A stretch of DNA of 64,000 nucleotides from Eggerthella sp. (GCA_030540085.1 JAUNWY010000008.1:1-64000); one strand, 5' to 3'. Positions 14,977-52,220 are shown, counted from the first letter of the stretch. Notes: generated by a model not told the origin, from the letters alone. Translations and numbers: made by a program.

Positions 14977-16229
14977 GAACGGTAGTCTCCATTAATCGAA
15001 ACGTATTCGTGGGAAAAGTCGCAGGTCCACACGGTGGTTTCCGCATCGCCTGCACCAAGGTTTGCCTCAAGCACAATCTCGTCGGCCTCGAAACGTCGCA
15101 GCGCCTCTTCCTCGCTAAAGGGAACGGGGAGGCCACCACGCAGAACAGGCATGCCCATGATGTCGATATCGACGTTTTCTTGGGCGAACTTTGCACCAGA
15201 GCGACCCAGGGCACCGGCGATTCGGCCCCAGTTGGCGTCATGCCCGTAGATGGCGGTTTTCACCAACGGCGAATTCGCTACAGTGCGCGCAGCCAAATCG
15301 GCTTCCGCATCATTTGCAGCGCCACGCACCGTAACGGTTACCAACTTCGTGGCGCCCTCGCCGTCGCTCGCCATCTTGCGAGCGAGCTTCTGGGTTACGG
15401 CATTAAGCGCCTGGCAGAACTCGGCATACAGCACGCTACCCTCCCCCGCCAAGGGAGCAGACGCAGCAGCTGCCTTGCCGGAAGCGAACAGGACACAGGT
15501 ATCGTTGGTGGAAGTGTCGCCGTCCACGGTTACCTTGTTGAAGCTCTGATTTACCGCCGAAGATAGAGCCCTGTGTAACAACGCTGCAGGGATGGGGGCA
15601 TCGGTGGTGAGTACCGAAATCATGGTGGCCATGTTCGGCATGATCATGCCCGAACCCTTCGCCATGCCGCCAACGGTAAATGTACAGCCGGCGTATTCAG
15701 CATCGGCAGTTTCGAAGGAAACAGCAGCCTCTTTCGAAACGGTGTCAGTGGTCATGATGGCGCGAGCAGCGCTGTTGCCCGTGGTTTCGCCGAGAATGTC
15801 GTGCAGCGCAGGAACGCCGGTTTCGAAGGGGACAATATCCAGCTGCTGACCGATGATGCCCGTCGAGGCAACCAGCACGTCTTCGGGCATGCAGCCGACC
15901 GTCGAGGCAACGATGCCGGCAGTCTTACGGGCGTTTTCGAGCCCGACCGACCCAGTTGCAGCGTTGGCGATGCCGGAGTTGATCACCATAGCGCGAGCAA
16001 AGCCGTAACCGACCCCGTCAAGGTGTTCGCGGGAAACGGTTACCGGAGCCGCGCAGAACACGTTCTGGGTAAATACTCCAGCAGCAGGGCACAGTTCGTC
16101 CGCCTCGATCAATGCCATGTCAAGGCGGTTGGGGTCATCGCGGAAACCGGCATGGATGCCACCGGCGCGAAAGCCCTTGGCGGACGAGACGCCACCGTTT
16201 TCGATGGTGATCAGGTTCGCTTTAGTCAT
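14973..16229 (-). CDS. argJ: Glutamate N-acetyltransferase (ornithine acetyltransferase)
   Basis: Transfers acetyl from N-acetylornithine to glutamate, making the pathway cyclic. The 418-residue precursor normally cuts itself before a Thr; that site is visible as MPNMATMISVLTTDA, with Thr after Ala as nucleophile. The DGDTSTNDTC motif is also present. The frame is open to 16307. The ATG at 16229 is chosen because AGGAG lies nine bases upstream and the protein then begins MTKANLITIENGGV, which fits the family. Eleven bases follow argC. No argA is seen in the cluster, and none is needed if ArgJ recycles acetyl groups. Confidence 0.95.
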   Translation of the reverse strand: MTKANLITIENGGVSSAKGFRAGGIHAGFRDDPNRLDMALIEADELCPAAGVFTQNVFCAAPVTVSREHLDGVGYGFARAMVINSGIANAATGSVGLENARKTAGIVASTVGCMPEDVLVASTGIIGQQLDIVPFETGVPALHDILGETTGNSAARAIMTTDTVSKEAAVSFETADAEYAGCTFTVGGMAKGSGMIMPNMATMISVLTTDAPIPAALLHRALSSAVNQSFNKVTVDGDTSTNDTCVLFASGKAAAASAPLAGEGSVLYAEFCQALNAVTQKLARKMASDGEGATKLVTVTVRGAANDAEADLAARTVANSPLVKTAIYGHDANWGRIAGALGRSGAKFAQENVDIDIMGMPVLRGGLPVPFSEEEALRRFEADEIVLEANLGAGDAETTVWTCDFSHEYVSINGDYRS

Positions 16230-24080: not shown

Positions 24081-24971
24081 CTATAAAAAACGCTGAACCT
24101 CCGCCAGCAACGGGATAGGCGCTTCCTCGGGAATAAAATGACCGCAAGGAAGGGCACGCCCCTGCACGTTCGTACAGAACCTAAGCCAGCACTGCAGCGG
24201 GCTGAAGAACTTTTCCACCAAACCGTTCGCTCCCCACAACACCAGTGTTTCAGCGGTAATTTTCTTGCCCGCATCAAGGTCTTCCTTGTCAAGGAAGCGG
24301 TCGATGCATTCGCCGGCACGATATTCTTCGCAAATAGCATGGATACATTCCACGTTGTAATGGCGCAGGTATTCGTCGTATACCTCTTGCGGGAAAGCCT
24401 CAGAGGAGGTGTCGTTTTCCGAGTTGTAGCGCCCAATGTGCAGGGCATTGCGGAAGTACATCTTGCGGCTTGAAAGGATAAGGTCTTCCGGGAACGGTTC
24501 ATCCTGCGTAAGCAGATACCAATGGAATAGCGCCTTTGCGAACTCCGCCGAGCTTAAGGCATACATGTCATACGTCGAAACGATATCGAGAAGCACTAGC
24601 TTATTGACTACTTCCGGATGATCGAGCGCCATTCGGTATGCAACACGGGCACCACGGTCGTGCCCCATAACGGAATAGCAGTCGAACCCCAACTCGCCCA
24701 TCACGGCAATGCAGTCTTCAGCCATGATGCGTTTCGAATAGGTGCTGTGATCAGGCAAGCCTTCAGGCTTGTCGCTATCGCCATAGCCGCGCAGATCACA
24801 CATGACCACGATAAAACGATGAGCTAAATCCCCTGCAACCTTATGCCACATAAGATAGGTTTCGGGATGCCCATGAAGCAGGAGAAGGGGCTCGCCTTCT
24901 CCCATAACTACCGCGTGAATGGTTACACCGTTTACCCCTTGGATAAAACGATGCGTTGCTGTTTCAAACAT
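24081..24971 (-). CDS. Alpha/beta hydrolase, haloacetate (fluoroacetate) dehalogenase type
   Basis: A 296-residue alpha/beta hydrolase with an Asp nucleophile (GHDRGARVAYRM, Asp105). Against my recollection of the residues of the Rhodopseudomonas RPA1163 fluoroacetate dehalogenase, every catalytic position is present. The triad is Asp105, Asp129 and His278. The carboxylate-binding pair is Arg106 and Arg109. The halide pocket is His150, Trp151 and Tyr217. Spacing is constant except for one three-residue insertion. The HAICEEYRAG and GHFIPEEAP segments are also as in that family. The expected reaction is hydrolysis of a C-halogen bond in a small 2-haloacid; an epoxide hydrolase is the alternative. 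The ATG at 24971 has GGGGGA upstream. A palindromic operator candidate lies 60 bases before the start. Confidence 0.82.
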   Translation of the reverse strand: MFETATHRFIQGVNGVTIHAVVMGEGEPLLLLHGHPETYLMWHKVAGDLAHRFIVVMCDLRGYGDSDKPEGLPDHSTYSKRIMAEDCIAVMGELGFDCYSVMGHDRGARVAYRMALDHPEVVNKLVLLDIVSTYDMYALSSAEFAKALFHWYLLTQDEPFPEDLILSSRKMYFRNALHIGRYNSENDTSSEAFPQEVYDEYLRHYNVECIHAICEEYRAGECIDRFLDKEDLDAGKKITAETLVLWGANGLVEKFFSPLQCWLRFCTNVQGRALPCGHFIPEEAPIPLLAEVQRFL

Positions 24972-25030
24972 AAGGTCCCCCAACCCTTAAGCTTGTTGCG
25001 ATCGCGCTCATAGATAATCCCCATTAACCA

Positions 25031-25042
25031 TGAACGTGTTCA
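25031..25042. promoter_or_regulatory. Operator-like palindrome upstream of the hydrolase gene
   Basis: TGAACGTGTTCA, a GAAC-N2-GTTC palindrome. On the minus strand it follows a TATACT -10-like hexamer by eight bases. It is the same motif found at 27196, 29232 and 51673. Confidence 0.5.
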
Positions 25043-25060
25043 ATTAGAAGTATACTCCGC

Positions 25061-25093
25061 AAAATGGAACAGGACATCCGAAGATGTCCTGTT
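25061..25093 (-). terminator. Terminator of the ubiD-ubiX transcript
   Basis: A perfect 11-bp stem (25068-25078 with 25083-25093). The minus-strand loop is TTCG closed by C-G, a stable tetraloop, and CCATTTTG follows. It lies about 45 bases past the ubiX stop. Confidence 0.8.
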
Positions 25094-25136
25094 TAATCAA
25101 CTCTTTAGATAGAAAAGGCCGAAAAGCCAGCAAACC

Positions 25137-25697
25137 CTAGCTCCAACGCTCGAAGGGCGGGTAGTTCAACCCGAATCGATCGAATATCTTGCCAATAAGC
25201 TGGTCTTCCATATCGTCGATAGTTTGCGGGTTGTGATAGTACGTCATCATCGGAGGCATCAGCGTTATGCCGGGAACACTTGCCAGCTGCGCCAGATTGC
25301 GCAAATGGATAGCGTTCATCGGCGTTTCACGCGCGACCAAAACCAACGGTCGCTGCTCCTTCAACGTAACATCCGCCGCGCGAAGCAATAGGTTATCGCT
25401 ATAGCCGCTTGCAATGCCCGCAACCGTTTTCATGCTGCAGGGAATAATAACCATGCCTTCGGTTTTGAACGTACCGCTCGCAATCGATTCGCCCAAAGAA
25501 GCATTGCTATGCACATAATCAGCCATGGCAAGCGCCTTATCGAAAAGCTCGGGCTCTTCATAGCTTGCCGTGAGCCTCCCGCTGTCGGTAACCACCACAT
25601 GTACTTCGCATTCGGTGTACTGCTTGAGCTGGCTTATGAAGCGACAAGCCAGGTGCGTGCCGCTTGCACCGCTTATTCCAACAACAATGCGCTTCAC
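25137..25697 (-). CDS. Flavin prenyltransferase, UbiX/LpdB type
   Basis: Makes the prenylated FMN cofactor needed by UbiD-type decarboxylases. The 186-residue protein has the Rossmann-like VGISGASGTHLACRF, the central IIPCSMKTVAGIASGYSDNLL and the conserved LVLVARETPMNAIHLRN. It ends MIGKIFDRFG-like, as family members do. It starts three bases after the ubiD stop, so the two are co-translated. Pairing with an LpdC-like UbiD suggests a dedicated cofactor supplier for aromatic-acid decarboxylation, not ubiquinone synthesis. Confidence 0.94.
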   Translation of the reverse strand: MKRIVVGISGASGTHLACRFISQLKQYTECEVHVVVTDSGRLTASYEEPELFDKALAMADYVHSNASLGESIASGTFKTEGMVIIPCSMKTVAGIASGYSDNLLLRAADVTLKEQRPLVLVARETPMNAIHLRNLAQLASVPGITLMPPMMTYYHNPQTIDDMEDQLIGKIFDRFGLNYPPFERWS

Positions 25698-25700
25698 GCC

Positions 25701-27179
25701 CTACTCCTCGAAATCAGGCAGCCAATGCTTAGGATCCACTTCCTTGAACTGGCAACGCTGGAAGCGATCTTTCTGGCTGTACGGCACCGTGCAATCGAAA
25801 ATGACCTTGCAGGCAATGCCGTGGTCGCGAATCGAAGGCGAACAGGTTGGGTCGTTTGACGGATCAAGCGGATGGCAGCGAACGCCAGGAATGGTGACGA
25901 TGTCCATATCGCCCTGGAAACGCGTGTTCATCGCCCACAGCACGTCTTTGATGTCGAAGGGGTCAACGTCTTCATCAACCAGGAACACATGCTTCAATTC
26001 GCTGAACGCAGAGAAAGCCAACAGGGCCATTTGGCGCTGACGACCCTCGTCGGAAGGCATGCTCTTCTTAATCTGAAGCACCGCCATGTACTTGCCGCCA
26101 CCAGGCGTTGCGCAATACACGTTCTGCAAACGGCCAGGCATGGCCTTTTCAACCATTTGGATGATGCTTGCCTCAGTGGGAATGCCCGCCATGCTTACGT
26201 GCTCTTCGGAAGGGCCGATGCAGGTTTGCATAATGGGATTCTTGCGCGTGGTTACCGCCTTGACCTTGATGACAGGCAGTTCGGATACGGCAGGACCGGT
26301 ATAGCCTGGGAATTCGGGCATAGCCTTGCCCGAATGAGTATTTTGGTCTTCGGCAACGCGCTTTCCAGGCAGCAACTCGCCTTCAATAACGTATTCAGCA
26401 TTGGCAATGCAGCGTTCCTCGATGGTAAGGCACTTTGCCATGCGAACAGGCTTTCCGCGCAGAGCACCAGCAACGTTGAGCTCGTCGTAGCCCAAAGGCG
26501 TGGTAGGCGGCTCAAAGCAGGTTGCCAATTCAATGGCGGGGTCTACGCCAATGCTGATAGAAATCGGAAGCGGCTTGCCCAGCGCTTCAGCCTTTTCGTA
26601 GAACGCGCCGATATGACGAGCGCCAGGAACCATGTAGATGGAAATCTCATCAGGACCCTGTAAACACAGACGGTGGATGGTGATGTCGGAAACGTGCGTT
26701 TCTGGGTCGGATGCGTAGCACATGCCCAAAGTGATATACGGTCCCGCATCTTCTGGTGTATTGGTGGGCGCCGGAACAAGCTTGCGCACATCGAAGCCTT
26801 CTTCGGTGGCAAGGTGCACCACTTCTCGGCATACCGCCTCTTCTTCAGGTACCTCAACGGGCGGCACAGGGTTCAATACCGCTTCGTTGAGCATGAAACC
26901 CAAGCGCTTTGGGTCTGCGTCGAGCAGCTTCGCCACCCTATCGCGACTTGCCAGCAAGCCAATAGCAACACGTGCATCAGGGTGGCCCTTGATGTTATTG
27001 AATACCATGGCTGGGCCTTCTTGCGTGGGACGGGGCACCGTACCGCCTGCGCCGACGTGGCGATACACGCCGCACAACTCGGCCTCAGGGTCTACCTCGA
27101 CGTCGGTTTCCACCAGCTGACCAGGGATCCCACGCAGAAACTCAAGTGCGCTGCGAAGATCGTCAACGTTATTACTCAT
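25701..27179 (-). CDS. UbiD-family decarboxylase, gallate/protocatechuate (LpdC) type
   Basis: A prenyl-FMN-dependent non-oxidative decarboxylase of 492 residues. Long stretches match what I recall of Lactobacillus plantarum gallate decarboxylase LpdC: ETDVEVDPEAELCGVYR, VPRPTQEGPAMVFNNIKG, APTNTPEDAGPYIT, ARHIGAF, FEPPTTPLGYDELNVAGA and GPSEEHVSMAGIPTEASI. TGKAMPEFPGY-like and VDEDVD motifs are also present. The expected substrates are hydroxylated benzoates such as gallate or protocatechuate. The frame is open to 27401 through a repeat element. The ATG at 27179 is chosen because GGAGGAGGGAG lies just upstream. A TATAAT box and an operator-like palindrome precede it. Confidence 0.9.
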   Translation of the reverse strand: MSNNVDDLRSALEFLRGIPGQLVETDVEVDPEAELCGVYRHVGAGGTVPRPTQEGPAMVFNNIKGHPDARVAIGLLASRDRVAKLLDADPKRLGFMLNEAVLNPVPPVEVPEEEAVCREVVHLATEEGFDVRKLVPAPTNTPEDAGPYITLGMCYASDPETHVSDITIHRLCLQGPDEISIYMVPGARHIGAFYEKAEALGKPLPISISIGVDPAIELATCFEPPTTPLGYDELNVAGALRGKPVRMAKCLTIEERCIANAEYVIEGELLPGKRVAEDQNTHSGKAMPEFPGYTGPAVSELPVIKVKAVTTRKNPIMQTCIGPSEEHVSMAGIPTEASIIQMVEKAMPGRLQNVYCATPGGGKYMAVLQIKKSMPSDEGRQRQMALLAFSAFSELKHVFLVDEDVDPFDIKDVLWAMNTRFQGDMDIVTIPGVRCHPLDPSNDPTCSPSIRDHGIACKVIFDCTVPYSQKDRFQRCQFKEVDPKHWLPDFEE

Positions 27180-27195
27180 AGGTTCTCCCTCCTCC

Positions 27196-27221
27196 AGAAC
27201 ATGTTCACAATTATAAGGGAA
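27196..27221 (-). promoter_or_regulatory. ubiD promoter -10 box with operator-like palindrome
   Basis: On the minus strand, CTTATAATTG is followed at once by TGAACATGTTCT (27196-27207, a GAAC-N2-GTTC palindrome), then the ribosome binding site. The site would cover the transcription start, as a repressor operator does. Confidence 0.55.
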
Positions 27222-27247
27222 TAGCCCACTTGTCATTAGCAAGGAAC

Positions 27248-27378
27248 TGGGAATATAGGGACAGGTCCCTATATTCCCACCAAGGCATAGCGCGCAAAGC
27301 AAGAGCCCACTTGCGTAGATGATTGCAAGCAGGCTCTCTTCGTTAGGTGGGAAAATGGGACCTGTCCCTATATTCCCA
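27248..27378. repeat. 131-bp REPIN/MITE-like element, copy 1
   Basis: Bounded by TGGGAATATAGGGACAGGTC at the left (arm 27248-27279) and its inverted copy at the right (27348-27378). Each arm is itself partly palindromic. The interior has a hairpin (GAGCC..CTTGC with GCAAG..GGCTC). It has the same length and arm sequence as the element at 34732-34862. It sits between the transporter terminator and the ubiD promoter. Confidence 0.88.
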
Positions 27379-27413
27379 AAAAAAGAACCCAGAGCGTGCA
27401 CTCTGGGTTCTTT
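27376..27413 (-). terminator. Terminator of the membrane transporter gene
   Basis: A perfect 13-bp stem (27382-27394 with 27401-27413) with a CGTGCA loop and a minus-strand run of seven T. The run overlaps the edge of the repeat element. Confidence 0.9.
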
Positions 27414-27463
27414 CAGGTTTGAAGCCTTTAGCTCCGAGTTTTAGACGTTTCCGTCAGGTGAGG

Positions 27464-28918
27464 CTATTTTTCCTCGTCCTGAAGCTTACCAGCCTTAGCG
27501 GCCTCCAAGCGAGCATGGAGTGCAACCAGCTGGCGCTCAGTCTCTTCATCCTCGATGCGCTGCAGTTCCTTGTTGTAGGCGTAGTCTGCGCGGATCTTGT
27601 CGTTGTCGGAGATGAGCAGGTAGAGGACGATTGCGGCAAGGAAGCCGACGCCACCGCCGCGGGCCACGATGAAGCCTGCGATCATGCCTGTCATGCCCTT
27701 GTCAAGGTCGTCGCGAACCAGACCGAATGCGATCTGCGAGCAGAGCCAGCCCTGGATGAGCAGTACAACTACGAGGAGTGCTGCAGATGCTGCAAGGGAT
27801 GCCTCATACAGAGGATAGACGAACAAACCAAGTACGGTGAACAGCAGGTTGGTACCGGAACCATCGTAGATGGAGTCCATGCCCTGGCGACCGGACTGCT
27901 TATAGCGAGCATAGGTAGCTACGCAGTAAGGAGCGGACAGCGGGCCTGCGAGTGCAGGATAAGGAGCGAACAGGGACAGGATTACATTACGAATACCGCA
28001 GATGACGTTGGTACGGTTCGGGTCGAACTCGATGTACTCGTCGTCGCGAGCTGCCTGGAGACCAAGCTGTTGAACGGTTACGAAGTCGCCGTATGCGATA
28101 ACCCATGCGACCACTGCGTAGGGCAGAGCCGCGATCCAAACGCCGGGATCAGTAGCAAAGCCGATGAACAGAGGCGAAACAACTGCGAACAGGCCCATGA
28201 AGTCAGGAACCTTGATGATCTCGCCGGACCACTGGAAGTTGAACTCGCCAGCGACGCCGCCTGCGATAAGCAGTGCGATAACAGCCCAAAGGAAGCTGTA
28301 GTTGCCGAGGATGGCAACGAACCTGTTGGTGTCCATGTACTTACGTACGCGCTTGGAGAACATGAGCATGAATACAACTACCAAGCCGCAGAGGCAGCCA
28401 ACGGTAACGGTGTCGATAGCGCCGCCGGTCTTCAGGCGAACGGCTACGGCGTTAACGCCAGCGCCCATTACGATACCAGCCTTGATGGCGGGAGGTACCA
28501 GAGTGTTGAGCTTCTTGGATAGGCCTGTTGCACCTAATACAATAAATAGGATGCCTAATTCAAGCTGAATACATGTCAGCATCTGCAATCGAGCAACGCC
28601 TGGGTCGAGCGATTCCAGGAACACGACGATAATTGCCATTGCCGGGGTGATCCAACCGCAAATGGAAGGCTCACCAAGCAGCCAGTTCAGGGTGTACATT
28701 GCCGTTTCAAATACAACCAGTGCCCAAGCCACTGCAGGGTCGAGACCCAAAGAAGTAATAAGAACAGCCAGAGCGCCGTACGAAGTACAAGCATTCATCA
28801 GGCCGGTTACTACTTCAGGTGGTGAGATCTTGAAGTGAATGAACGGAAGACGAATACGGAATAGGCCAACTTTCCAACATGGCTGAATACCACCGTATTC
28901 ACGCTTTAGCATAGCCAT
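27464..28918 (-). CDS. Polytopic membrane transporter, SLC23/SLC26-like
   Basis: A 484-residue integral membrane protein with about 12 to 14 hydrophobic segments and a charged helical C-terminal tail. It looks like a member of the nucleobase/anion (SLC23-SLC26) fold, with paired repeats such as GWITPAMAIIVVFLESLDPG and PPAIKAGIVMGAGVNAVAVR in the first half; DUF3360 proteins are an alternative. The substrate is not evident. Its position beside ubiD/ubiX, and a shared operator-like motif in its upstream region, make uptake of an aromatic acid a reasonable guess. It ends at a strong terminator, so it is not co-transcribed with ubiD. The ATG follows GAGAGGGG. Confidence 0.72.
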   Translation of the reverse strand: MAMLKREYGGIQPCWKVGLFRIRLPFIHFKISPPEVVTGLMNACTSYGALAVLITSLGLDPAVAWALVVFETAMYTLNWLLGEPSICGWITPAMAIIVVFLESLDPGVARLQMLTCIQLELGILFIVLGATGLSKKLNTLVPPAIKAGIVMGAGVNAVAVRLKTGGAIDTVTVGCLCGLVVVFMLMFSKRVRKYMDTNRFVAILGNYSFLWAVIALLIAGGVAGEFNFQWSGEIIKVPDFMGLFAVVSPLFIGFATDPGVWIAALPYAVVAWVIAYGDFVTVQQLGLQAARDDEYIEFDPNRTNVICGIRNVILSLFAPYPALAGPLSAPYCVATYARYKQSGRQGMDSIYDGSGTNLLFTVLGLFVYPLYEASLAASAALLVVVLLIQGWLCSQIAFGLVRDDLDKGMTGMIAGFIVARGGGVGFLAAIVLYLLISDNDKIRADYAYNKELQRIEDEETERQLVALHARLEAAKAGKLQDEEK

Positions 28919-29231
28919 CGCTTAGCCCCTCTCTCCTCTTGCGCATCCCTGCGCAAAAATAAAATCGACCATCTTTCTCCTCCTTCTTTGATTGCATCAG
29001 GCTCACACGTGCACGCTTGCTTACCTAACGCCTTCAACCAATCGGGAAAAGAATTGGAGAGAGTTCTGCTTCACTTGGCTGTTAGAGCTTTTAGCCCCAA
29101 AGGCTAAGCCAAACGGAAATCCCAACTTCCCCCGATCCCTTGAAGATGGTCCCTACTACGAACTATTGCGCCTTGTGCCCGATCCCCCGATGGGCGGCGC
29201 TTAGGTTCAATTGCGATTATTCTCCATTAGA

Positions 29232-29263
29232 TGAACATGTTCTAATTGATTGCGAACGTGTTT
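29232..29263. promoter_or_regulatory. Operator-like palindrome pair between transporters
   Basis: TGAACATGTTCT at 29232-29243 is a full GAAC-N2-GTTC palindrome. GAACGTGTTT at 29254-29263 is a near match, about two helical turns away. It may control either flanking transporter. Confidence 0.45.
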
Positions 29264-29528: not shown

Positions 29529-29648
29529 GGAGTCGGTACGCCAGAGTGGGGCGTTGCTTAGCGCAATGGACGTGTGTTACCCGGGACTCTGTGCTTCAAG
29601 ACGAGAATTCGCATCTGTTCCACCTATATAAGAGAGGAGCACTACGGA

Positions 29649-30935
29649 ATGATCGCCTTAACTACCGCTCAGATCATCGCGATTGTCATCTTCGTCGTCG
29701 TGATGGCACTCATCATTTCCGAAAAAGTGCATCGCACCACCGCCGCGCTTGCAGGCGCGGTAGCCCTAATCCTTTCGGGGGTTCTTACCTTCGATAACGG
29801 AGTAGAGCACATCGACTTCGGAACGCTTGGCGTTCTGGTTGGCATGATGATCTTCGTTGCCGTCGTTAAGAACTCGGGCATCTTCGAGTACCTGGCAATT
29901 AGAGCTGCCAAATTGGCGAAGGGCAATCCCTGGATAATCATGGTGTTGTTCTGCCTTATCACCGCTGTTCTTTCCGCGTTCCTGGACAACGTCACCACCG
30001 TTTTGCTTATCGGCCCTGTTACCTACACCGTTTGCAAGATGCTGGAGATCAACCCCATTCCGTTCTTCCTGACGGAAATCATTTCTTCGAACGTTGGTGG
30101 CACCGCAACACTCATCGGCGATCCGCCGAACATCATGATCGGCTCTGCTACGGGCCTTACGTTCTTCGACTTCTTGGCAATCAATGGCCCTGCTGTACTT
30201 ATCATCCTGCTTGTTTCCCTGCTGATGTTCTACGTAATGTACGGCAAGAAGATGGGCGTATCCGCTGAAAAGCAGGCCTCGGTTATGCAGCTGCACGCCC
30301 ATGAGGCCATCAAGAGCCAGACGCTGTTCAAGAAGAGTGTTGTAATGATCGCCCTGGTTGCGCTTGCCTTTGTAGTACACGGTGCACTGCACATCGAACC
30401 GAGCGTTGTTGCCCTTACCGCAGCAGCCATCATGTTGCTCATCGGCAAATCCGACGTAGAGCACACACTCATGGACGTTGAGTGGGCCACCATCGGCTTC
30501 TTCGCTGGCTTGTTCGTGGTTGTTGGCGGCCTCGCCGAAACCGGCGTTATCGAAATGATGGCCTACGCGCTGATCGACATCACCGGCGGCGACATGATGA
30601 TTACCATCATCGTGCTGGTATGGGCATCGGCCATCATCTCTTCCTTCCTGGATAACATCCCGCTGGTTGCCACCCTTATCCCCATCATCACCACGATGGA
30701 GGCAACGGGCATGGATGTAACGCCTTTGTGGTGGGCAGTGTCCCTCGGCGCCTGCATCGGCGGCATCGGCACGCTCATCGGCGCTTCTGCCAACGTGGTT
30801 CTGGCGGGCATCTCCGGCAAGTACGGCCACCCCATCACCTTCATGGACTACACCAAGGTTGGCTTCCCCATGATGTTGGTATTCACCGCCATCAGCTGCG
30901 TTTACCTGGTACTCCGCTTCTGCGTATTCGTCTAG
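29649..30935 (+). CDS. ArsB/NhaD-type ion transporter, copy 1
   Basis: A 428-residue membrane protein of the ion-transporter superfamily that includes ArsB, NhaD and the P-protein. Family features are LAGAVALILSGVL near the start, the signature LIGDPPNIMIGSA near residue 155 and a second-half AIISSFLDNIPLVATLIP. About 11 to 12 membrane segments are present. The transported ion cannot be told from sequence; Na+/H+ exchange and oxyanion export are both known in the family. The frame opens at 29574, but the ATG at 29649 follows AGAGGAG and starts at the first membrane segment. It is nearly identical in layout to the next gene. Confidence 0.88.
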   Translation: MIALTTAQIIAIVIFVVVMALIISEKVHRTTAALAGAVALILSGVLTFDNGVEHIDFGTLGVLVGMMIFVAVVKNSGIFEYLAIRAAKLAKGNPWIIMVLFCLITAVLSAFLDNVTTVLLIGPVTYTVCKMLEINPIPFFLTEIISSNVGGTATLIGDPPNIMIGSATGLTFFDFLAINGPAVLIILLVSLLMFYVMYGKKMGVSAEKQASVMQLHAHEAIKSQTLFKKSVVMIALVALAFVVHGALHIEPSVVALTAAAIMLLIGKSDVEHTLMDVEWATIGFFAGLFVVVGGLAETGVIEMMAYALIDITGGDMMITIIVLVWASAIISSFLDNIPLVATLIPIITTMEATGMDVTPLWWAVSLGACIGGIGTLIGASANVVLAGISGKYGHPITFMDYTKVGFPMMLVFTAISCVYLVLRFCVFV

Positions 30936-30996
30936 CATCTGGCACCCTGCCGTAGCACACGGCAAGAACGCCCGCAACATCGCATACGCATAGCAC

Positions 30997-31026
30997 AGGA
31001 CCCCGCTTCGGCGGGGTCCTTTTTTT
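30997..31026 (+). terminator. Terminator of ArsB/NhaD copy 1
   Basis: A perfect 10-bp stem AGGACCCCGC/GCGGGGTCCT with a TTCG loop, followed by TTTTTT. It is almost the same sequence as the terminator at 32612. Confidence 0.95.
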
Positions 31027-31255
31027 GTGAATGAATCACCCACTAAATGCCAATCGTTGTTCGCGACCATTTGATGAACGCGTTATTGACGCTTAAATTG
31101 CCTAGCCGTACCCTTTCTATAAGGGAAGTCCGATGCTCATTAGGAGGCCAATGGCCTTCTTTTGTTTTATTGCATCGGTTGTGGGGGGCTACACTTCCCG
31201 CAAGAGAGAAGGTCCGTTTCCCCAGGGAAACGGGGTTAAGTTAGGAGTGGTGTAT

Positions 31256-32539
31256 ATGCCTGAATTCACTACACCGCAGATCATTTCAATAGTGATCTTC
31301 ATTGTGGTGTTCGCGCTGATCATCTCGGAAAAGGTCCACCGTACGGTCGCCGCGCTTGCGGGCGCCGTTGTGCTCATCCTGACGGGTATCCTCAGTTTTG
31401 ATACCGGCATGGAGCACATCGACTTCGGCACGCTGGGCGTCTTGGTAGGCATGATGATATTCGTTGCCGTAGTTAAGAATTCAGGCATATTCGAATACAT
31501 CGCTATTCGAACAGCGAAGATAGCGAAGGGCAACCCATGGGTAATCATGGTGCTGTTTTGTATTATCACCGCTGTTCTTTCCGCGTTTTTGGACAACGTC
31601 ACCACGGTATTGCTTATCGGCCCCGTTACCTTCACGGTTTGCAAGATGCTCGAGTTGAGCCCCGTACCGTTCTTCATCACTGAGATCATGGCCTCCAACA
31701 TCGGCGGCACGGCAACGCTCATCGGCGACCCGCCGAACATCATGATCGGCTCCGCCGCCCACCTGACGTTCATGGACTTCCTGGTATTCAACGGTCCCGC
31801 CATTGTTGTAATCATGGTTGTTGCCATTGCCATCTTCTATGTGATGTACGGTCGCAACATGGGCGCTTCCGCCGAACAGCAAGCCTCCATCATGCAGCTC
31901 CACGCTCATGAAGCTATCAAGGATAAGTCGCTCTTCAATAAGAGTGTTGTAATGATTGCCCTGGTTGCCGTCGCTTTTGTATGCCACAGCATGGTGGGCG
32001 TCGAACCGAGCGTTGTTGCCCTTACCGCAGCTGCCATCATGCTGCTTATCAGCCGCGCAGAGGTAGAGAAAATCCTGCTTGACGTTGAATGGGCAACTAT
32101 CGGCTTCTTCGCTGGCCTGTTTATCGTAGTTGGCGGCTTGGCAGAAACCGGCGTTATCAATATGCTCGCCAATGGCCTTATCGATATCACCGGCGGCGAT
32201 ATGCTTATCACCATCATCGTGCTGGTATGGGCATCGGCAATCATCTCTTCCTTCCTGGACAACATCCCCATGGTTGCTACGCTTATCCCGATTCTGATTG
32301 CCATGGAGTCTACCGGCGTCGACGTTATGCCTTATTGGTGGGCTATTTCCCTGGGTGCCTGCATCGGCGGCATCGGCACGCTCATCGGCGCTTCCGCGAA
32401 CGTAGTGCTTTCAGGTATGTCCGGACGCTATGGCTACCCCATCAGCTTCATGGACTACACCAAGGTTGGCTTCCCGCTGATGCTGGTCTTCACCGCTATC
32501 AGCTGCGCATGGCTCCTGATCCGCTTCTGCGTGTTCTAA
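31256..32539 (+). CDS. ArsB/NhaD-type ion transporter, copy 2
   Basis: A 427-residue paralog of the preceding gene, with the same motifs (LIGDPPNIMIGSA, AIISSFLDNIPMVATLIP) at the same positions. Much of the protein is identical, and the differences look conservative. The tandem arrangement, the matching terminators and similar TTGACGC promoter elements point to duplication of a whole transcription unit. The frame opens at 31133. The ATG at 31256 is preferred, with AGGAG eight bases upstream. A partial palindrome, TGAACGCGTTAT (31075-31086), lies just before a TTGACG element in its leader. Confidence 0.88.
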   Translation: MPEFTTPQIISIVIFIVVFALIISEKVHRTVAALAGAVVLILTGILSFDTGMEHIDFGTLGVLVGMMIFVAVVKNSGIFEYIAIRTAKIAKGNPWVIMVLFCIITAVLSAFLDNVTTVLLIGPVTFTVCKMLELSPVPFFITEIMASNIGGTATLIGDPPNIMIGSAAHLTFMDFLVFNGPAIVVIMVVAIAIFYVMYGRNMGASAEQQASIMQLHAHEAIKDKSLFNKSVVMIALVAVAFVCHSMVGVEPSVVALTAAAIMLLISRAEVEKILLDVEWATIGFFAGLFIVVGGLAETGVINMLANGLIDITGGDMLITIIVLVWASAIISSFLDNIPMVATLIPILIAMESTGVDVMPYWWAISLGACIGGIGTLIGASANVVLSGMSGRYGYPISFMDYTKVGFPLMLVFTAISCAWLLIRFCVF

Positions 32540-34731: not shown

Positions 34732-34862
34732 TGGGAATATAGGGACAGGTCCCATTTTCCCACCCAAGAAAAAGGCCTCGCTTGCAGCAAAACACGCAAG
34801 CGAGGCCCTGCCTCTGTTCGCTAAAACCAACTGGGAAAATGGGACCTGTCCCTATATTCCCA
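34732..34862. repeat. 131-bp REPIN/MITE-like element, copy 2
   Basis: Perfect 31-base inverted repeats (34732-34762 and 34832-34862) begin TGGGAATATAGGGACAGGTC. The interior holds a perfect 12-bp hairpin. AGAAC occurs on both flanks and may be a target-site duplication. It has the same length and arm sequence as 27248-27378. Confidence 0.92.
34769..34807 (-). terminator. Terminator of pheST inside the repeat element
   Basis: A perfect 12-bp stem (34774-34785 with 34796-34807) followed on the minus strand by TTTTTCTT. It lies about 65 bases past the pheT stop, inside the 131-bp element. Confidence 0.85.
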
Positions 34863-49496: not shown

Positions 49497-51194
49497 TTAG
49501 TTCTCCTTCGTCTGGGAATAGAGCACGTCGGCAAGCTGGCCAACACGCGGATTGGTACGATACGAGCACGGGTTGGCGAAGAAACGAGCGGTGGAAGCAA
49601 GAACGTCGTCTACTACCACCAGGTTGTTCTCGCGAAGCGTAGTGCCCGTTGCGGTGATGTCGATGATGCGTTCGGCCATGCCGGTGATGGGGGCAAGCTC
49701 GATGTTTCCGTGGAGCTTCACGATTTCAACGGGCATGCCCATCTTGGCATAGTAGGAACGGGTGATGTTGGGATACTTCGTGGCAACGCGAATAGACCCC
49801 AGCTTGCGATAGCGGCTTTCCACCGCCTCGGTAGTGCCAGCCGATTCTGCCACCACGAAACGGCAGCCTCCGAACTTCAGGTCGGCGAGCTCGACAACGT
49901 CGGGTGATGCTTCGATAAGGGAGTCCTCGCCACAAATACCGCAATCAGCAGCACCCAACGCAACGAAAACCGGCGCATCGGTAGGACGCACGAACAGATA
50001 CTCCACGTCGCCATTGCGCAACATAAGGGTGCGCCCCGCATCTGCCAAACCCGTCACATCCAAGCCGGCAGCTTCGAGCGTAGCAATAGCATCATCTTTC
50101 AGCGAGCCCTTCGGCACGGCAATGCGCAAGGAACGCGTTGCCTCGGAAGACTCCAGCGCCGCCATTACCTGCTCCAGGTAGAATGCGAAGCCTGCAGCGG
50201 GAACCTTTTCGGCGCCGTACTGGGCGAGCAAGTTGTCGTAGCGGCCGCCACCACCCAAAGGCGAGCCCAGGCCGGGAGCGTATGCTTCGAACACCAGGCC
50301 CGTGTAATAGTCAAACGAGCTCATTACCGAGAAATCGATAAGGACCTTGCCCTCCAAGCCCGATTCGATCAGCGCGTTGTACACGCCTTCCAACTCACTG
50401 ATGCCGCGAGCGCAGCCCAACGGCTCGAGCATTGCACGCACCTGTGCAAGCTCGGCCTTTCCGCCACGCAAGCGGGAAAGAGAGAAGATGGCACGGGCAA
50501 TGGCGGGAACCACACGGCCGGGATTGGCGATGGCAGGGTCGGCCAACTTGAAGCGGGATTTGTCCTCCGCTTCGTTCGAACCGCCATTGGCGGCGCGCTC
50601 GGCAGCGGCAACAAGTTCTTCCAGGTACACGAAATTAGAGGTGTGGTAGGCCTGCATAACGGCAGTTTTCCACTGATCTGAAGCGCCGCTGGCATCAAGC
50701 AAATCACGCAGAACGCCTGCCGAACCCAAGGCGATGGTAAATGTTTCCAGACCGCATTCGGAAAGGGCGGAAGCCAACAGCGAGACCAATTCAACATCGG
50801 CTTCGCTCCCTGCCGCGCCAATGCACTCAGCGCCGCATTGCGTTAGTTCGCGAGCAGCGGCCTCTGCCGTCTTTTCTCGGAACACGCGCTGGGTGTAGCG
50901 CAAACGCAATGGCTGATCCTGAGCCACTCCGCGCGTTGCGCACATGCGGGCAATCTGCATGGTAACGTCGGGGCGCATGGCCAAAAGATCGCCGTGGGAA
51001 TCGAAAAATTTGAACGGGGCCTCGGGCACGTGGCCACCGGCCTCCATCACATCGAGCACTTCCAACGTGGGTGTTTCTACGGGACGATACCCTTTCTGCG
51101 CAAAGCAGGCACGGACCCGAGCCGTAAGATCTTCGCGGACAAGCGCCTCATCGCTCATCACATCACGAAAACCAACGGGAGTGATGTAGTTCAT
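49497..51194 (-). CDS. HisZ-HisG fusion: ATP phosphoribosyltransferase, regulatory plus catalytic
   Basis: The first step of histidine synthesis in one 565-residue chain. Residues 1 to about 348 are HisZ, a catalytically dead histidyl-tRNA synthetase relative (GFRDVMSDEALVREDL, LAMRPDVTMQIARM, GGGGRYDNLLAQYG). Residues about 355 to 565 are a short-form HisG (RIAVPKGSLKDDAI, the PRPP loop DITATGTTLRENNL at 512-525, and a C-terminus without the regulatory domain). HisG and HisZ are usually separate proteins that form a hetero-octamer. The frame is continuous across the junction. It heads the his operon. The ATG has AAGAAGGAAT upstream. Confidence 0.92.
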   Translation of the reverse strand: MNYITPVGFRDVMSDEALVREDLTARVRACFAQKGYRPVETPTLEVLDVMEAGGHVPEAPFKFFDSHGDLLAMRPDVTMQIARMCATRGVAQDQPLRLRYTQRVFREKTAEAAARELTQCGAECIGAAGSEADVELVSLLASALSECGLETFTIALGSAGVLRDLLDASGASDQWKTAVMQAYHTSNFVYLEELVAAAERAANGGSNEAEDKSRFKLADPAIANPGRVVPAIARAIFSLSRLRGGKAELAQVRAMLEPLGCARGISELEGVYNALIESGLEGKVLIDFSVMSSFDYYTGLVFEAYAPGLGSPLGGGGRYDNLLAQYGAEKVPAAGFAFYLEQVMAALESSEATRSLRIAVPKGSLKDDAIATLEAAGLDVTGLADAGRTLMLRNGDVEYLFVRPTDAPVFVALGAADCGICGEDSLIEASPDVVELADLKFGGCRFVVAESAGTTEAVESRYRKLGSIRVATKYPNITRSYYAKMGMPVEIVKLHGNIELAPITGMAERIIDITATGTTLRENNLVVVDDVLASTARFFANPCSYRTNPRVGQLADVLYSQTKEN

Positions 51195-51672: not shown

Positions 51673-51708
51673 TGAACGCGTTCATTAATAGAGGAAAAGG
51701 CGTATAAT
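51673..51708 (+). promoter_or_regulatory. Promoter and operator-like palindrome of the stress-protein gene
   Basis: TGAACGCGTTCA (51673-51684) overlaps the likely -35 region. A perfect TATAAT -10 box is at 51703-51708. The palindrome is of the same GAAC-N2-GTTC type as those near ubiD. Confidence 0.6.
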
Positions 51709-51743: not shown

Positions 51744-52220
51744 ATGGGGTTCAAAAACATCCTCGTGCCGTACGACAATTCCGAGCACGCAAACAATGCA
51801 CTTAAAGAAGCCATTAACATGGCTAGCGAAAATCCCGAGGCCACAATCCATGTAGTTGAGGTTGTTGCTCCACCACAAGACCTGGTGTACAGCAGCATCA
51901 ATCAAACCGGATTCGGCATGGGCGTTTCGGTTGTAGCCAAGGGCGATTTTGCCAAAGTAGTCGAAGAGCGCAATGCCGAACAGGACAAGGAACTGCAGGA
52001 AACCATCGCCGATGTGGTTGAAGGCTTCCCCGGCACCCTTACCGCAGAAGTGGTCTTCGGCATCTACACCATCGAAACCATTATCGAAACGGCAAAGCAC
52101 TACGATTGCGACCTTATCGTTATGGGTTCACGAGGACTGGGTGCTATCCGAGGCGCAATCGGCTCGGTCAGCTACGGCGTGCTTCGCTCCGCCGAAATTC
52201 CTGTACTGGTGGTTAAGTAG
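51744..52220 (+). CDS. Universal stress protein (UspA family)
   Basis: A 158-residue nucleotide-binding stress protein. It starts FKNILVPYDNSEHANNALKEA and has the ATP-binding pattern G-x2-G-x9-G-S in MGSRGLGAIRGAIGSVSYGV, ending AEIPVLVVK, so ATP binding is likely. The role is unknown beyond survival under starvation or stress. The ATG has GAGGGGG upstream. It is divergent from hisZG. Confidence 0.95.
   Translation: MGFKNILVPYDNSEHANNALKEAINMASENPEATIHVVEVVAPPQDLVYSSINQTGFGMGVSVVAKGDFAKVVEERNAEQDKELQETIADVVEGFPGTLTAEVVFGIYTIETIIETAKHYDCDLIVMGSRGLGAIRGAIGSVSYGVLRSAEIPVLVVK

Follow-up and report, generated by a model that had tools for sequence, protein, structure and literature searches.

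A predicted GAACRYGTTC operator, very probably confined to one Eggerthellaceae genus, and a candidate TetR regulator

In the gut, Eggerthellaceae convert drugs and phenolic plant compounds, and we found little literature on their gene regulation beyond the TM-LuxR activators. DadR, CadR and HcdR are 10-12-TM LuxR regulators of Coriobacteriia that act in small-molecule catabolism (PMC9734109). At the level of the DNA site, the closest described system is that of KstR, a TetR regulator of mycobacteria whose operator, TAGAAC-N2-GTTCTA, is intergenic, overlaps the -10 box and is often located between divergent genes, with double sites at one promoter; KstR is autoregulated and has dozens of catabolic targets (PMC1995591). 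In our search for the exact palindrome, this KstR paper was, among the papers listed, the only one treating a bacterial operator of such sequence.

The palindrome W-GAAC-RY-GTTC-W occurs at 25031-25042, 27196-27207 and 29232-29243 of the window (the whole stretch of 64,000 nucleotides analyzed), with GAACRYGTTC cores starting at 25032, 27197 and 29233. A scan of the sequence bore out these three copies, from which the sequence-only reading had proposed a co-regulated catabolic unit, and added one copy inside a gene (16056), one intergenic copy (51674) and one copy with a single mismatch (29254). The relevant features are:

16056-16065, no strand assigned: GAACACGTTC within a coding region (gene call)
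24081-24983, minus strand: alpha/beta hydrolase gene, downstream of operator 1 (Pfam Abhydrolase_1, 3.6e-21)
25032-25041, minus strand: putative operator 1, GAACACGTTC on this strand, intergenic, 7 nt after TATACT and 65 bp from the hydrolase start (gene call)
25049-25054, minus strand: -10-like TATACT of the hydrolase gene, ending 7 nt before operator 1 (sequence)
25137-25697, minus strand: ubiX, flavin prenyltransferase (VdcB/UbiX-like; PRK06029), directly 3' of ubiD
25701-27179, minus strand: ubiD, VdcC-like non-oxidative hydroxyarylic acid decarboxylase, 492 aa (UbiD_N, UbiD, UbiD_C)
27197-27206, minus strand: putative operator 2, GAACATGTTC, 3 nt after TATAAT and immediately 5' of the ubiD Shine-Dalgarno sequence
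27210-27215, minus strand: -10-like TATAAT of ubiD-ubiX, ending 3 nt before operator 2 (sequence)
27464-28918, minus strand: Xan_ur_permease-like transporter (Pfam, 27.3 bits against a cut-off of 27; no NCBIfam match)
29233-29242, no strand assigned: putative operator 3, GAACATGTTC, intergenic between the permease (minus) and CitMHS transporter (plus) genes
29254-29263, no strand assigned: one-mismatch copy GAACGTGTTT, 21 bp from operator 3
29574-30935, plus strand: CitMHS/ArsB-type transporter (Pfam CitMHS, 2.9e-94; likely start 29649 by gene call)
51674-51683, plus strand: further putative operator GAACGCGTTC, 65-69 bp 5' of a universal stress protein (USP) gene at 51744-52220

The window holds five exact GAACNNGTTC copies against 1.05 expected (maximum of four in 100 shuffles), the coding copy at 16056 probably being a chance occurrence. 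The clustering had been considered notable, but three sites in 4.2 kb are by themselves only mildly unusual, since any three of 27 random sites fall that close in about 5% of simulations.

The genes themselves are partly different from what had been proposed. The start of the hydrolase gene lies at 24983 (TTG) or 24971 (ATG), and its product reaches no NCBIfam cut-off, not even those of the haloalkane dehalogenase models, so that the gene previously called dehalogenase-like is a generic alpha/beta hydrolase. The UbiD protein, whose closest named relative is that of Anaerotardibacter muris, also from the Eggerthellaceae (81%), scores 476 bits with the VdcC profile, below its cut-off of 650; UbiX exceeds the PRK06029 cut-off (231.5 against 188 bits) and does not reach that of VdcB (229.6 against 290). 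The distances from operator 3, about 315 bp to the permease gene and about 400 bp to the CitMHS gene, make the regulated gene uncertain: the permease is a possible target and the CitMHS transporter the alternative. Two adjacent CitMHS/ArsB-like genes with very similar products lie at 29574-32539, apparently a tandem duplication.

A repeat of another sequence is also present in this region. GGGACCTGTCCCTATATTCCC appears as inverted pairs about 108 bp apart at 27249-27377 and 34733-34861, one of these copies being just 5' of the ubiD promoter, and has 51 genome matches with up to two mismatches against none for the reversed control, resembling a REPIN- or MITE-like element. Its GGGACCTGTCCC core is also found directly after ubiD in A. 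muris (L049:7478-7489), and the repeat may be common to both genera near the same gene.

Operators 1 and 2 had been described as following -10 boxes, the place of a repressor site. The minus-strand TATACT and TATAAT hexamers are indeed there, but a search with the sigma-70 consensus gives no promoter at either operator and no consensus -35, so that both promoters are read from the -10 hexamers alone. The spacing of 7 and 3 nt places the sites at or near the transcription start.

The main evidence that the palindrome is an operator comes from its distribution between intergenic and coding DNA. The window belongs to an Eggerthellaceae-like metagenome-assembled genome (G000; 1.56 Mb, 16 contigs, 80% complete), in which genes were called with a simple home-made codon-usage caller trained on the window, 82% of which is coding. 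Of the 49 copies of GAACNNGTTC in this genome, 27 have an RY centre. GAACRYGTTC is intergenic in 24/27 cases (binomial p ~2e-15 at an intergenic fraction of 0.18), against 9/22 for copies with other centres (Fisher p 6e-4); the motif is thus far from equally common inside genes, the observation that would have spoken against the proposed operator. Three further congeners (G001, G002 and G003), which together with G000 form our sample of the genus, gave 17/19, 10/14 and 5/5 intergenic sites, or 56/65 when the four genomes are pooled. In contrast, all 20 sites of a 3.4 Mb genome from another genus of the family are inside genes, which, as the caller is the same, speaks against a bias towards intergenic calls. 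The same holds for 20 of the 22 sites sampled in other genera at one genome per genus, the two intergenic ones being located before a ClpC-like gene in G027 and in G011. The difference between the genus and its relatives is therefore strong (56/65 vs 2/42; Fisher p 3e-18). A family-wide operator had seemed conceivable from raw counts, as 24 other genera have 147 WGAACRYGTTCW matches and 49 of the reversed control, yet the sites examined there are coding, and the reversed pattern is a poor control. Raw motif counts are thus misleading, and it is the intergenic/coding and outgroup tests that carry the claim. GAACRYGTTC, in most cases flanked by A or T at either end, is almost certainly a genuine operator, as predicted from these distributions, and as far as sampled it is very probably restricted to this Eggerthellaceae genus.

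The conservation of the sites points in the same direction. In seven orthologous promoters compared between two congeners, 8-10 of the 10 site bases are kept while the flanks are mostly 15-36% identical, with one promoter pair at 55%. These promoters precede genes for the USP, an EF-G-like factor, an OadA-like protein, a shikimate-dehydrogenase-like protein, a 135-aa protein, an MFS protein and a TetR regulator, and the site at 51674 is among those kept despite differing flanks, in G002. A 10-mer maintained while its surroundings drift resembles a bound site and speaks against a dispersed repeat. Beside the 51674 site, one frame (49497-51194) matches both a histidyl-tRNA-synthetase-like domain and HisG, an apparent fusion, and a similar-looking frame adjoins the same site in G002 (L154).

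Tandem copies of the palindrome are present at some promoters. Two operator-like copies stand side by side before the EF-G-like gene of G003 (L148:2003-2027), whose G002 orthologue is also preceded by the site. Three palindromes 11-12 bp apart are found at L022:2977-3010 and L027:2978-3010, near a DUF6282 gene and 5' of a gene for a 127-aa protein of unknown family; this arrangement possibly reflects cooperative binding.

The ubiD gene itself cannot be used in this comparison. A conserved motif upstream of orthologous ubiD genes had been suggested as support for the operator, and its lack as a refutation; taken literally, the lack is what is seen, as among 80 ubiD loci GAACRYGTTC occurs in 3 only, each time thousands of bases from ubiD. 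Moreover, no ubiD turned up in G001, G002 or G003, two of which are incomplete genomes, so that the ubiD-ubiX operon looks species-specific. Since ubiD was not found in the congeners and the motif is no operator in the other genera sampled, the orthologue comparison is unable to discriminate.

The genes beside the sites show how far the regulon could extend. In G000, they encode the alpha/beta hydrolase, UbiD-UbiX, the permease or CitMHS transporter, the USP, a sulfate permease, SNF and MFS transporters, a BD-FAE esterase, a pyrroline-5-carboxylate-reductase-like protein, UPF0261, an SDR, DUF6282, a metallo-beta-lactamase-fold protein, a CoA-transferase III, two TetR and one LysR regulators and a HypA-like protein. 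In the congeners, site neighbours include CoA-transferases, an acyl-CoA dehydrogenase, an AMP-binding ligase with an AMP-binding_C_2 domain, an aldehyde dehydrogenase, an FMN oxidoreductase, a transporter of the sodium:sulfate symporter family, the OadA-like and EF-G-like proteins, and genes preceding one that was judged AtpB-like by eye from sequence. The common theme is taking up and activating organic, aromatic and acyl-CoA compounds, along with some growth genes. The hydrolase, ubiD and transporter genes are therefore not singled out as the local unit that had been proposed: the ubiD cluster accounts for three out of about two dozen target units, and the predicted regulon is much larger than this cluster and apparently undescribed.

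The sequence-only reading had left the regulator of this operator unnamed; a candidate can now be put forward, a TetR gene with cysS on one side and a universal-stress-protein gene on the other:

G000:C9:43573-44190 plus a short N-terminal extension: candidate TetR regulator

The upstream gene was recognized as cysS by visual inspection of its sequence end, and the USP-like gene is downstream in both G000 and G003. TetR matches in the four congeners numbered 50, of which 45 were compared, and three of these have reciprocal best hits in all four genomes. The candidate is one of them (58-86%), with the TetR_N domain detected in its four orthologues at 3.1e-11 to 7.5e-12. Across 60 genomes of the family, the only other congener among them reaches 281 bits, and outside the genus the best match has 101 bits (34% identity), a coarse phylogenetic profile of presence in one genus and absence elsewhere. 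The site is also found 5' of the tetR ORF itself, as GAACATGTTC at 83 nt in G000 (exact), AAACACGTTC at 101 nt in G001 and AAACATGTTC at 103 nt in G002 (one mismatch each); G003 has no site before this gene. As the site also precedes other regulator genes, these copies are suggestive of autoregulation and not proof of it. The predicted structure (mean pLDDT 75) returned the TetR fold, with FadR proteins solved with acyl-CoA as the best matches at 20% identity or less, a ranking that is weak because TetR folds resemble each other and because of this mean pLDDT. In summary, the candidate is conserved in the four congeners, has no close match in the other family genomes sampled and has sites at its own promoter in three of the four, and the sites are themselves conserved, intergenic and genus-restricted; from such sequence evidence, the cysS-linked TetR is, somewhat above even chances, the protein that would read the operator.

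Other regulators were considered and rejected. The two other TetRs common to all four congeners have no exact or one-mismatch site upstream. TetR L193, picked out for its KstR-like recognition helix, lost its place as leading candidate because its sole reciprocal best hit is a 28% match in G003 and no exact site lies upstream. The LysR proteins L134 and L161 are 85% identical and have a site upstream in G001 and G002, with 30-39% identity to the five G000 LysRs compared. For TM-LuxR regulators, the genome contains only three GerE domains.

The best-surviving alternative accepts a real genus-wide operator but assigns it to a conserved regulator of another family (MarR, GntR, BlaI/CopY, XRE or ribbon-helix-helix), the cysS-linked tetR being merely one of its targets. 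Our regulator inventory covered the TetR, LysR and LuxR families, so that another family could supply the regulator; the sites precede several regulator genes (two TetR and one LysR in G000; LysR, TetR and ArsR-like in G001), and tandem copies 11-12 bp apart would also fit cooperative small dimers. Nevertheless, no other regulator gene was seen with a site in three of the four congeners, and the motif core equals that of a TetR operator, KstR. We consider this alternative a serious one, although clearly behind the cysS-linked TetR.

It is unlikely that the sites belong instead to several local TetR and LysR regulators sharing a short core, each controlling its own cluster with no global regulon. 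Several sites do share a divergent region with a TetR gene (L136, L137, L139 and L029), and about 7/17 LysR genes are within about 5 kb of a site. However, the recognition helices of those TetRs differ, and many conserved sites, such as those of the EF-G-like, USP and OadA-like genes, have no adjacent regulator. LysR sites are, in addition, usually longer than this palindrome (T-N11-A). Least probable by far, and largely refuted by the tests presented here, is that functionless short palindromes were raised by codon bias or AT-rich spacers: other genera do carry the pattern inside genes above the reversed control, so that raw counts mislead, and local clustering reaches p about 0.05, but the 24/27 intergenic placement, the favored RY centre, the orthologous promoters keeping the site in drifted flanks and its near absence from the intergenic DNA of relatives all argue against it.

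Returning to the cysS-linked TetR, we infer its identity as the regulator, the repression and the ligand as follows, an explanation that, taken as a whole, we favor by a small measure. GAACRYGTTC would be the operator of a genus-confined global regulator, with the palindrome of 10-12 bp bound by a TetR dimer. The spacing at the hydrolase and ubiD-ubiX promoters suggests that a bound site just after the -10 box would block RNA polymerase. A ligand would release the repressor, perhaps an acyl- or aryl-CoA thioester, a guess from KstR, FadR and the nature of the targets. The TetR would repress, besides its own gene, about two dozen transcription units through which organic acids, aromatics and acyl-CoA compounds are taken up and degraded, with ubiD-ubiX, the hydrolase and one transporter as three of them. 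Going further, a genus-specific TetR could have become a global regulator that links the catabolism of organic acids and aromatics with growth genes (the EF-G-like factor, ATP synthase and the universal stress protein), with species-specific genes such as ubiD-ubiX captured into its regulon; we put this forward tentatively, as rather less likely than not.

Compared with known systems, the adjacent UbiD (VdcC-like) and UbiX (VdcB-like) genes recall the VdcBCD/BsdBCD hydroxyarylic acid decarboxylases, although both proteins are below the Vdc cut-offs. Like the predicted regulon, the TM-LuxR regulators act on small-molecule catabolism in gut bacteria of this family, but there are three LuxR-type domains here and the palindrome is no operator in the other genera sampled. 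The FadR-type TetR repressors of Bacillus and Thermus, with acyl-CoA in their solved structures, are the best fold matches of the candidate, in spite of the low identity given above. The closest likeness is with KstR, as the core GAAC-N2-GTTC (with AAC-N2-GTT within it) is identical and mostly RY-centred. Intergenic sites, often between divergent genes, their place at the -10 box, dozens of catabolic targets, double sites and the predicted autoregulation are further parallels. In contrast to KstR, the outer T/A (TnnAACnnGTTnnA) is not enriched (T 33% and A 40% at position -2), the targets form no lipid or sterol cluster, and the organism belongs to a different class of Actinomycetota; the candidate matches KstR2 at 3e-7, with no KstR chain among its 60 best PDB matches. 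As a KstR regulon fails on the outer T/A and on an orthologous regulator, we file this system as a new TetR-type regulon, in which a defined operator, a candidate repressor and a listed set of targets make global control of catabolism directly testable.
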